Assembly (NCBI GenBank): GCA_031178355.1
Contig: JAPSJC010000011.1
Location: 1-47,131, forward strand
Direction of reading: 5' to 3'
From: Ureibacillus sp.
GTDB taxonomy: Bacteria > Bacillota > Bacilli > Bacillales_A > Planococcaceae
DNA: 47,131 nt
This document shows positions 28,635 through 36,441 of the stretch, piece after piece. How positions within the stretch are numbered: the stretch's first letter is position 1; each line of letters starts with the position of its first letter. Below the pieces are notes generated by a model. The model saw nothing but the letters and a program-made list of their open reading frames with translations, made no database searches and was not told where the DNA came from. A program made the translations under genes and the position numbers.

Positions 28635-30115
<1,481 letters not shown>

Positions 30116-33268: not shown

Positions 33269-33328
33269 TATTCTGGAAATTGAGAAAATAATAGGGTATT
33301 TTAATTTTTAATGTAACGGAGGTTGGAA

Positions 33329-35134
33329 ATGGCGAAAAAACTATTGTCCCGTGATGAAGTTCCTGTTGAGTTAACTTGGGATTTATCCACTATTTTTGCA
33401 TCCGATGAAGAATGGGAAACCGAGTTTAAAGAAATCGAAAAGTTAATTCCTACAGCAGAACAGTATAAAGGAAAAGTAACAGAAAGCGCTAAAAGCCTTT
33501 ATGATGCATTACAATTTAGCGATTCCATTTCAGTAAGATTTGGAAAATTATATGTTTATAGTCATTTAAAACATGATCAAGATACAACAAACAGTAAATA
33601 TCAAGCATTGGATGGTCGAGTAAAATCATTGGGAGCAAAGTTAAATGCCGCTTGGTCATTTACAACTCCAGAAATTCTATCTATAGACGAAGCTACAATT
33701 GAAAGATATTTAAATGAATATGAACCATTACAATTATATGCACAAATGTTGAAAGAGTTAAACTTACAACGTCCACATGTATTAACTGCGGATAAGGAAG
33801 AATTATTAGCTCAATTCTCTGAGGTAAAAGGTGCGTCGGGTAATACGTTCAGTTCGTTAAATAATGCTGATTTACAATTCCCAGTAATCCAAAATGACAA
33901 AGGGGAAGACGTAGAACTAACGCACGGAAACTACATTTCATTCTTAGAAAGTTATAACCGTGATGTCCGCCGCGAAGCATTTAAAGCTGTGTATGATACG
34001 TATGGCAAATTCAAGAACACGTTTGCTTCTACTCTTTCTGGAAATGTAAAATCACATAACGTTAGTGCAAAAATTCGTCAGTATGATTCAGCTAGACATG
34101 CTGCGATGAGCAATAACAATATTCCAGAAAAAGTGTACGATCAACTAATCTCAACAATTCACGAGTACTTACCAGCCCTTCATCGTTATGTGGCGCTACG
34201 TAAAGAAGTACTCGGTGTTGATGAACTTCATATGTATGATTTATTTGTTCCACTTGTGAAAGAAATGAATGTTGAAATACCATATGAAGAAGCAAAAGAA
34301 ACAATGGTAAAAAGCTTTGCTCCTCTTGGGGAAGAATATCAAGCTATCGTACAAAAAGGGTTAGATAATCGCTGGGTGGATGTTCACGAAAACAAAGGGA
34401 AACGTAGTGGAGCGTATTCTTCTGGTACGTATGGAACTAACCCATATGTTCTAATGAACTGGCAAGATAATTTAAATAATTTATTTACACTAGCTCATGA
34501 GTTTGGTCATAGTTTACACAGCTACTATACAAGAGAAAATCAACCATACCCATATGCAAGCTATTCAATCTTTGTTGCAGAGGTTGCGTCGACATGTAAT
34601 GAAGAATTATTGTTTGATTATTTATTAAAAACTACTGAAGATCCTCAACTAAAGATTTATCTTTTAAATCACTGGTTAGATGGTTTCCGTGGAACAGTAT
34701 TCCGTCAAACAATGTTTGCTGAATTTGAACATATCATTCATGAGATGGATGCTCGTGGTGAAGCACTGACTGCAGAAAGATTAACTGAAATTTACTACGA
34801 TTTAAATAAACAGTACTTTGGTGATGCAATAAAAGTGGATGAGGAAATTGGTTTAGAATGGGCACGAATTCCTCATTTCTATTACAATTATTATGTATAC
34901 CAATATGCAACGGGTCAAAGTGCAGCTACTGCATTAAGTAAGCAAATTTTAGAAGAGGGGAAACCTGCTGTTGATCGTTATATAAACAATTTCTTAAAAG
35001 CGGGATGCTCGGATTTCCCAATTGAAGTACTTAAAGCAGCAGGTGTTGATATGGAATCACCTCAACCAATCGCGGAAGCTTGTAAAGTGTTTGAGGAAAG
35101 AGTAGCAGAATTAGAATCGCTATTATTGAAATAA
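33329..35134 (+). CDS. pepF: Oligoendopeptidase F (M3 metallopeptidase)
   Basis: PepF cleaves medium-sized peptides in the cytoplasm using zinc. The 601-residue product has the zinc motif HEFGH at residues 390-394 and the downstream glutamate in FVAEVASTCNEELL. The N-terminal helical domain (PVELTWDLSTIFASDEEWE) and C-terminal M3 pattern (RIPHFYYNYYVYQYATGQSAATALS) are typical. The frame can start at a TTG (33323), but GGAGGT at 33318-33323 fixes the ATG at 33329. In Bacillus excess PepF affects signalling peptides and sporulation. Neighbours coiA and roxS/spxH keep the common Bacillales order. Confidence 0.95.
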   Translation: MAKKLLSRDEVPVELTWDLSTIFASDEEWETEFKEIEKLIPTAEQYKGKVTESAKSLYDALQFSDSISVRFGKLYVYSHLKHDQDTTNSKYQALDGRVKSLGAKLNAAWSFTTPEILSIDEATIERYLNEYEPLQLYAQMLKELNLQRPHVLTADKEELLAQFSEVKGASGNTFSSLNNADLQFPVIQNDKGEDVELTHGNYISFLESYNRDVRREAFKAVYDTYGKFKNTFASTLSGNVKSHNVSAKIRQYDSARHAAMSNNNIPEKVYDQLISTIHEYLPALHRYVALRKEVLGVDELHMYDLFVPLVKEMNVEIPYEEAKETMVKSFAPLGEEYQAIVQKGLDNRWVDVHENKGKRSGAYSSGTYGTNPYVLMNWQDNLNNLFTLAHEFGHSLHSYYTRENQPYPYASYSIFVAEVASTCNEELLFDYLLKTTEDPQLKIYLLNHWLDGFRGTVFRQTMFAEFEHIIHEMDARGEALTAERLTEIYYDLNKQYFGDAIKVDEEIGLEWARIPHFYYNYYVYQYATGQSAATALSKQILEEGKPAVDRYINNFLKAGCSDFPIEVLKAAGVDMESPQPIAEACKVFEERVAELESLLLK

Positions 35135-35145
35135 ATATATCTTGA

Positions 35146-35180
35146 GAGTGTCTAATAATTCTTTTAGACACTCTTTTTTA
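35146..35180 (+). terminator. Terminator after pepF
   Basis: GAGTGTCTAA pairs with TTAGACACTC around an 8-base loop, followed by TTTTTT. Confidence 0.92.
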
Positions 35181-35306
35181 GATAGATGGATGTTCTACAT
35201 AAATTAATTGGGATTATGAAGTCTTGATGATTTTTTATTTGAAAATGTGACATAAAACGTGGTAATTTTTATAAGGATATGATGTAATCGCTTTCTATAT
35301 GGCGAT

Positions 35307-35315
35307 TTTGTGAAA
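35307..35315 (+). promoter_or_regulatory. Possible ResD (SrrA) binding site upstream of roxS
   Basis: TTTGTGAAA matches the B. subtilis ResD consensus TTTGTGAAT at 8 of 9 positions and sits about 15 bases before the proposed -35 of the small RNA. ResDE/SrrAB are known activators of RoxS/RsaE, which makes the match meaningful. Confidence 0.55.
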
Positions 35316-35329
35316 TAATTGTCGTTTTA

Positions 35330-35359
35330 TTGCGAAAGCCTATGAATCTATGATAAATT
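35330..35359 (+). promoter_or_regulatory. Proposed promoter of the RoxS/RsaE small RNA
   Basis: TTGCGA at 35330-35335 is 18 bases from TAAATT at 35354-35359. The transcript would start near 35366. Over the start lies the dyad GTGA-AATAAA-TCAC (35366-35379), which resembles a degenerate Rex site (TTGTGAANNNNTTCACAA). Promoter strength is modest, as expected for an activated gene. Confidence 0.55.
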
Positions 35360-35365
35360 AAACAC

Positions 35366-35480
35366 GTGAAATAAATCACATAACAAACATACACCCCTTT
35401 GTTTGAACGTGAACATTTCTCCCATCCCCTTTGTGTAGAGACGACATTATTATTCAGAATAATGTCGTCTCTTTTTATTT
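35366..35480 (+). ncRNA. roxS: RoxS/RsaE regulatory small RNA
   Basis: This roughly 110-base transcript has the hallmarks of RsaE (Staphylococcus) and RoxS (B. subtilis): a 5' AAATCACATAACAAACAT segment, a CCCC motif in the loop of AACAAA/TTTGTT (35382-35402), a second unpaired C-rich motif TCTCCCATCCCC at 35418-35429, and a strong terminator hairpin with TTCAG in its loop. The C-rich motifs pair with Shine-Dalgarno regions of central-metabolism mRNAs. Its position between pepF and yjbH is the same as in those genera. It controls redox and TCA-cycle genes in response to NO and NADH; this role is known from homologues. No ORF fits here. Confidence 0.88.
35438..35480 (+). terminator. Terminator of the RoxS/RsaE small RNA
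   Basis: A perfect 14-bp stem (GAGACGACATTATT with AATAATGTCGTCTC) and 6-base loop precede a long T-run. Confidence 0.95.
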
Positions 35481-35559: not shown

Positions 35560-35598
35560 AGAAAAGGGTTGTCTTGAAATACCTTCAAGACAACCCTT
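35560..35598 (-). terminator. Terminator of the yjbI-spxH transcript
   Basis: A perfect 15-bp inverted repeat (35564-35578 with 35584-35598) is followed on the minus strand by TTTTCTA. Confidence 0.88.
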
Positions 35599-35634: not shown

Positions 35635-36441
35635 TTATGATTTCTTACGCCATAGGGTAACTTCATTATTCGCTATACGTTCAATTTTTTGCTGTAACAT
35701 TCGTTTCTTCAACTCACGTTCAGCTTCATTTACTGGGATGGAGTAAATGTCTGCAATGTCTTCAGTTGTTAAAGTGTAATAACGACTAAAGAGCTCATCA
35801 TATGTTGGTAATGTTTTTCTAATAAGTTCTTTATTTAATAATTCTCTTAAAATTTGTACATACACTTCATAGGAATATAATCCGGCAACTTTAAGACCCT
35901 CGTCTTCAATACACTCATTGAAAAATACAATGCTTGGCACCTCGTCAATTTCCATCTCCCTTGTTATATGCAAATCGCACTGGAAAGCACGGGCAGTTTC
36001 TTTTGAACCAAAATCAGCATTGAATTCATCAATATCTAATTTACATTCATAGGCTATCTCAATTAATGTTGAATATGAATGTACGTTTCTCGTATTTAGT
36101 AGTATATATTCTTGCAATTTTTGCATAAAACGAAATGCTGCTCGTCTTCCTTGTAACTCAGCTGCTTTAATAGCGATTGAAGGCAAAACAGGATGTGAGA
36201 TATCTATTTTAGAACCAGATATGCAAGCTTGAGCACGAATGTTGGAATTTAATGTAGAAAGATTCGTACTAATAATAAATCGCCAAGAAAAGTAATGACC
36301 ATATTCAATGTGAAGTTTACGTAGAATTGTTTGTACTTTAAATGCTTTTGTACAAAACGGGTCTAAAAAAATATATAATTCAATTGGCTTTGTAATTTGT
36401 GGAGGTGCAATAGGTTCAGATAATAATTGAATATCATTCAC
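35635..36441 (-). CDS. spxH: ClpXP adaptor SpxH (YjbH)
   Basis: SpxH is a DsbA-like adaptor that delivers Spx to ClpXP. The 268-residue protein matches YjbH: PIELYIFLDPFC at the start of the thioredoxin-like fold, YGHYFSWRFIIST, KAAELQGRRAAFRFM, and IDEVPSIVFFNE..DEGLKVAGLYSYEVY. The B. subtilis CPEC motif is reduced to CTKA here: Cys30 is kept and Ala33 replaces the second cysteine. The start is a GTG overlapping the yjbI stop (TAGTG) behind GAGGAGG, so the two are coupled. Its target Spx is encoded in the same window. Confidence 0.92.
   Translation of the reverse strand: MNDIQLLSEPIAPPQITKPIELYIFLDPFCTKAFKVQTILRKLHIEYGHYFSWRFIISTNLSTLNSNIRAQACISGSKIDISHPVLPSIAIKAAELQGRRAAFRFMQKLQEYILLNTRNVHSYSTLIEIAYECKLDIDEFNADFGSKETARAFQCDLHITREMEIDEVPSIVFFNECIEDEGLKVAGLYSYEVYVQILRELLNKELIRKTLPTYDELFSRYYTLTTEDIADIYSIPVNEAERELKKRMLQQKIERIANNEVTLWRKKS

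Follow-up and report, generated by a model that had tools for sequence, protein, structure and literature searches.

The small RNA RoxS of Bacillus subtilis and its homolog RsaE of Staphylococcus aureus act in trans (PMC3861533, PMC4409812). ResDE is reported to activate roxS in response to NO, and a conserved 8-nt sequence around -65 was taken as the ResD site in B. subtilis (PMC4409812). A Rex site lying directly after the start of B. subtilis roxS keeps the gene repressed until NADH rises, and binding of Rex to the promoter was demonstrated by EMSA (PMC5419742). The C-rich regions of the RNA were described to block translation initiation on ppnKB and, in the form trimmed by RNase Y, on sucC (PMC4409812). 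The same was reported for sucD in S. aureus (PMC3861533). Moreover, induction of RoxS lowers sucC, sucD, citZ and other TCA cycle products (PMC10433868), and in B. subtilis RoxS is held in check by a sponge RNA, RosA (PMC8216469). The gap holding RoxS/RsaE in B. subtilis is listed as yizD-yjbH (PMC3574147), and a redox neighbourhood has already been noted for both B. subtilis and S. aureus (PMC4409812).

In our study we analysed a stretch of 47,131 nucleotides from Ureibacillus sp. (the window), which is contig 47 in a 158-contig assembly that is 76% complete; the genome comprises 2.83 Mb. An earlier note on this DNA had placed a RoxS/RsaE RNA in the gap between pepF and spxH and proposed a search with the Rfam model. 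This search returned a covariance match to RF01820 (RsaE/RoxS) at 35366-35471 on the plus strand, which spans the full model (1-112) with 87.7 bits and an E value of 2.8e-13 and exceeds the gathering score of 79 bits. Alignment and gene order agree with the match, and judged by these three lines of comparison the element is RoxS/RsaE. The predicted gene extends from 35366 to 35477 (+) and would yield an RNA of about 105-112 nt with a predicted +1 at 35366.

The hallmarks listed in the earlier note were recovered. A hairpin with the stem CAAACA/TGTTTG at 35384-35405 (+), whose arms lie at 35384-35389 and 35400-35405, carries the first C-rich run ACACCCC (35391-35397) in its loop. The second C-rich stretch, CTCCCATCCCC at 35419-35429 (+), is unpaired in the predicted fold and is the putative anti-Shine-Dalgarno seed. 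Both C-rich motifs and the hairpin had been claimed before, and so had a strong terminator, which was found at 35437-35472 (+) with a 15-bp stem, a 6-nt loop and a T tract. Three terminator-like sites lie between 34600 and 36200, compared with 0.4 expected from shuffled sequences. With the terminator as part of the folded sequence, the predicted minimum free energy is -30.1 kcal/mol (z -7.27). In the alignment of 49 loci of the family, columns 35386-35434 are conserved at 89-100%, and the seed CCCATCCCC is exact in 53 of 57 loci outside Listeriaceae and in none of 19 Listeriaceae loci. Among 23 chosen sequences out of 76 loci, the three 5' helices are paired in 97.4, 89.7 and 95.3% of cells (95.3% for CAAACA/TGTTTG). 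Percentage paired and covariation score were equalled in only 3 and 2 of 500 shuffles, respectively. Compensatory changes occur in a single pair of the 5' stems, a number equalled in 218 of 500 shuffles; covariation is a weak test here because the RoxS sequence is nearly invariant.

The gene order is conserved as well. Upstream on the same strand lies pepF, encoding oligoendopeptidase F (33323-35134, TIGR00181, 698.8 bits), which is followed by a terminator-like hairpin at 35144-35175 found in the terminator scan. Downstream, a convergent spxH-like gene of the Thioredoxin_5 type occupies 35635-36441 on the minus strand (PF13743, 179.7 bits), and a hairpin at 35564-35598, T-rich on the minus strand, was taken by reading as its terminator. 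Profile matches confirmed spx, the spxH-like gene, a yjbI-like globin, relQ and an NAD kinase in the window, in line with the reported presence of spx, spxH, yjbI and ppnK. The further statement that redox control genes cluster here holds as far as co-location is concerned, which earlier work had pointed out in B. subtilis and S. aureus; for ppnK it amounts to co-location only. Searching 81 genomes with RF01820 gave matches at E <= 0.001 in 54, of which 38 exceed the gathering score; the 54 comprise all 49 genomes of the family, the present one included, and 5 of 32 genomes outside it. The best locus of each of the 54 genomes, together with L141, L147 and L152 from three further genomes, makes up a set of 57 loci. 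In 55 of these, pepF precedes the RNA on the same strand; the exceptions are L005, whose contig begins only 221 bases ahead of the RNA, and L046, with none in the fetched flank. Behind the RNA, 53 of the 57 loci carry spxH on the opposite strand, within flanks of about 1.5 kb at most loci (exceptions L008, L047, L059 and L147).

Several additional matches were discarded as RoxS copies. The second matches in G001, G003 and G017 (36-37 bits) are regarded as chance, since they read as the tail of a ribosomal-protein-L7/L12-like gene together with its terminator. A second match in G055 (L034:1689-1789, 36 bits) is rich in C and T and closes in a terminator-like sequence, and the RoxS hallmarks were not seen in it; the better match of that genome reaches 58.6 bits. 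Besides, the window contains a T-box leader at 29889-30101 on the minus strand (127.6 bits). It precedes an open reading frame at 28840-29829 that presumably codes for a tRNA ligase (trpS, for example).

In the promoter region, the alignment of the 49 family members from -75 onwards shows conserved blocks amid a variable background: TATGGCGATTTTGTGAAA (35298-35315), TTGC (35330-35333) and TG-N-TAAA-N-T (35351-35359), followed by the RNA from 35366. In the background columns 35316-35329 the commonest base reaches 36-61%. The TTGC columns are conserved at 77-100% (TTG at 100%, C at 77%) and belong to a -35-like hexamer TTGCGA at 35330-35335 (+). Positions 35351, 35352, 35354, 35355 and 35359, each 100% conserved, lie in an extended -10-like element TGA-TAAATT at 35351-35359 (+). 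The spacer between the two measures 18 bp here, and 87% of the family relatives lack base 35336, their spacer being one base shorter. A sigma-70 scan found 4 sites compared with 8.7 expected, none of them at the roxS promoter. This fits, and does not prove, a weak promoter that depends on an activator.

The earlier note had described a ResD/SrrA-like TTTGTGAAA box upstream of the promoter. The box is present at 35307-35315 and conserved, but it constitutes just the second half of a larger element, TATGGCGA-T-TTTGTGAAA at 35298-35315 (+), about -68 to -51, which we read as two half-sites. Within the 49 loci the TTTGTGAAA half is conserved at 81-100% by its commonest base and the other half at 48-100%. 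The motif TTGTGAA occurs in the 75 bases upstream of the start in 45 of the 49 loci; the copy closest to the start lies between -57 and -59 in 42 of them and at -45 in 3. A looser tandem pattern was found in 43. This position resembles the one reported for B. subtilis roxS near -65. The conserved element is a candidate ResD/SrrA-like site.

A Rex-like dyad GTGA-N6-TCAC had also been proposed over the predicted start, and it lies there as GTGAAATAAATCAC at 35366-35379 (+). Of 76 loci (57 outside Listeriaceae plus 19 Listeriaceae loci), 73 carry the exact pattern; the exceptions are ATGA forms in L004 and L027 and a GTGG form in L058. All loci of the RF01820 search are counted, including L058, which a search with the dyad pattern had missed, and the other 22 were placed with the dyad pattern, so that for these the count is biased towards the dyad. 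Across the alignment of the 49 family members the commonest base of the dyad columns reaches 91-100%. The window holds the dyad twice, here and at 971, compared with 0.42 expected, and TTTGTGAAA once compared with 1.92 expected by chance; since these counts are not unusual, both elements rest on comparison and not on rarity. Genome-wide, the Rex-like pattern with at most one mismatch is not enriched (85 sites compared with 95 for a reversed control). By reading, exact matches apart from the one at L307 (below) fall in the gap that separates a GroES-like from a GroEL-like frame, within a carboxylase-like frame and close to two frames without an obvious redox role. As exact matches also fall at non-redox frames, the genome-wide motif was not taken as proof. 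In the same genome, L307:1501-1547 carries twin Rex-like dyads, GTGAAATTTTTCAC and GTGAAAAGTATCAC, one exact and one with a single mismatch, upstream of a pyridine-nucleotide oxidoreductase gene.

In the RNA, the two arms of the dyad also form the 5' sides of two stems, and conservation alone consequently shows no DNA site. It could be argued that the dyad is kept solely for these stems and that Rex is inactive here, all the more as GTGA-N6-TCAC is not rare in the window. However, L035 and L036 keep the dyad without the downstream GTGA partner, and in L035 the arms are even extended to the five-base GTGAA/TTCAC, which favours a DNA operator, although in two loci only. The binding of Rex to the B. 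subtilis promoter in EMSA (PMC5419742) also speaks against a role restricted to RNA folding, and we consider this explanation unlikely. Accordingly, we prefer to read 35366-35379 as a predicted Rex site at the transcription start, in a position similar to that of the B. subtilis site immediately after the start.

Both regulators have candidates in the same genome. A profile search detected a Rex N-terminal domain (PF06971, 80.1 bits). ResB is present, with ResA- and ResC-like frames beside it by reading, and an OmpR-type response regulator and a histidine kinase are also located next to it. A ResDE-type pair is thus encoded, the names ResD and ResE resting on gene order; among the matches listed, no NCBIfam equivalog past its cut-off names the response regulator ResD. 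The locus suggests that the published ResD/Rex wiring reaches the Planococcaceae family.

Regarding potential targets, we predicted the pairing of RoxS with 477 start regions of open frames of at least 120 amino acids, taken from 640 kb of the 2.83-Mb genome with starts chosen by Shine-Dalgarno strength. The start region of sucD reached -20.6 kcal/mol and rank 11 of 477; that of sucC was unremarkable at -15.7 kcal/mol, with 66 of the 477 at or below this value. Among 30 sucD loci out of 77 genomes with a match, the median pairing was -14.9 with RoxS (n=18) and -12.8 without (n=12), a difference that is not significant (p 0.08) and in which the rows are not independent. Given its rank and this difference, the pairing supports sucD as a target in this genome and not a co-evolution of the two RNAs. 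In our data sucD is the best supported target. The ppnK gene of the window was rejected, since its pairing of -10.4 kcal/mol lies at the median of -10.5. The best model for this NAD kinase is NF003424 and not NF002902, the type to which we take the known target PpnKB to belong. A second PF01513 match (C98, L132) reads as a diacylglycerol-kinase gene, and hence no second NAD kinase was found in the 76%-complete genome.

As a separate observation, the start region of rex (L060) carries GGGGGAT and pairs with RoxS at -18.9 kcal/mol (rank 24 of 477). Such a pairing, if true, would close a double-negative loop. Across relatives the values range from -8.3 to -19.9 (30 rex loci, drawn from the 76 genomes in which rex was matched). 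RoxS is unmatched in four of the genomes, and two of these four still show values of -18.5 and -19.4. A feedback of RoxS on rex is therefore unsupported across relatives and is kept as a lead only. The literature searched contained no mention of RoxS together with rex mRNA.

Taken together, the locus very probably encodes a RoxS that is activated by ResD, repressed by Rex and turns down the TCA cycle in trans. In this genome the basis consists of family membership, gene order, the conserved footprints, the presence of Rex and a ResDE-type pair, and pairing potential. The signals, the direction of regulation and the mechanism are transferred by analogy from B. subtilis and S. aureus. According to this model, Rex bound over the start site would block transcription of roxS at low NADH, and transcription would be activated through the ResD-like site. 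Rising NADH, or NO, would lead to accumulation of a trans-acting RNA of about 110 nt. Its exposed C-rich runs would pair with G-rich ribosome binding sites, block translation and expose the paired mRNA to RNases. The net effect would be a reduced TCA cycle, with sucD as the best supported candidate among the targets. That the element is instead a cis-regulatory leader or the terminator of a neighbour, as the Rfam type Cis-reg of the overlapping rli61 model (RF01485, 50.1 bits at a threshold of 50) might imply, is very improbable, since it has its own terminator, the next gene, spxH-like, lies on the opposite strand and leaves no sense gene directly downstream, pepF owns a separate terminator-like hairpin, and the homologs of B. 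subtilis and S. aureus are trans-acting.

The match of rli61 to the RoxS position is marginal. When 395 genomes of one order were searched with RF01485, 38 matched and 34 passed the threshold. All 34 belong to one family, which we take to be Listeriaceae because of the model name and the rli61 scores; the best copy of each reaches 88-135 bits. In the 19 of these 34 genomes whose loci were examined (L164-L175, L196-L198, L201 and L204-L206), pepF invariably precedes the RNA on the same strand. The loci begin with the GTGA-N6-TCAC dyad and the CCCC hairpin. They thus resemble RoxS in the operator dyad, the CCCC hairpin, the UUUCUCC following the hairpin and the place behind pepF. All 19 loci differ from the window in carrying CUCCUUUUGAUUGCGCUG instead of CUCCCAUCCCCUUUGU; CCCATCCCC is absent from each of them, with CTCCTTTTGATTGCGCTG in its place. 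They also differ in that spxH was found in 0 of 19 fetched flanks and in the Rfam type, which is Cis-reg for rli61. The window lacks the rli61 3' half CUCCUUUUGAUUGCGCUG and was filed as RoxS, because CUCCCAUCCCCUUUGU stands where rli61 has CUCCUUUUGAUUGCGCUG.

The relation between rli61 and RoxS is best read, from the sequences compared, as orthology with a changed seed. We think it likely that rli61 is no cis-regulatory element of its own, that both descend from an ancestral pepF-linked, Rex-controlled RNA in which the operator and the first C-rich hairpin stayed fixed, and that Listeriaceae exchanged CCCAUCCCC for another 3' module. If true, the same NADH signal would have been rewired to different mRNAs, and the effect of a seed change could be studied while the input through the NADH-sensing operator is constant. 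If rli61 acts in trans, its targets may include mRNAs with start regions matching CUCCUUUUGAU. This link is the sole part of our results that a specialist might not expect. The literature searched, which included few subscription papers, contained no mention of rli61, alone or with RsaE, and the link may be in print; 'Listeria' is absent from the main text of PMC4409812 and, in the available part of PMC10433868, is mentioned only in the reference list. Partial second copies of rli61, which combine a portion of its 3' half and a terminator with unrelated 5' parts, were seen at L196:1198-1332, L197:1489-1587, L198:1439-1538 and L199:931-996, all on the minus strand, and the one in L198 retains only the TTTGATTGCGCTG end. 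In the genomes G576, G637, G436 and G607, such portions of the 3' half with a terminator stand apart from the main locus. The rli61 match in G108 (L163, 34.6 bits) and the second match in G444 (L200) were rejected as RoxS, as the hallmarks were not seen.

Compared with RoxS of B. subtilis and RsaE of S. aureus, the locus shares the covariance match, the C-rich regions, the 5' hairpin, the start-site Rex-like dyad, a candidate ResD-like element upstream and the adjoining spxH (yjbH). Differences concern the terminator, whose sequence varies among relatives, the spacer between -35 and -10, which exceeds that of 87% of the family members by one base, and the NAD kinase near roxS, which is a poor predicted target here. 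Control by ResD and by Rex as well as the redox neighbourhood had been described in earlier publications on B. subtilis and S. aureus. The roxS gene described here is thus a typical and well-conserved representative of a known redox small RNA and adds one more genome to this well-studied system.
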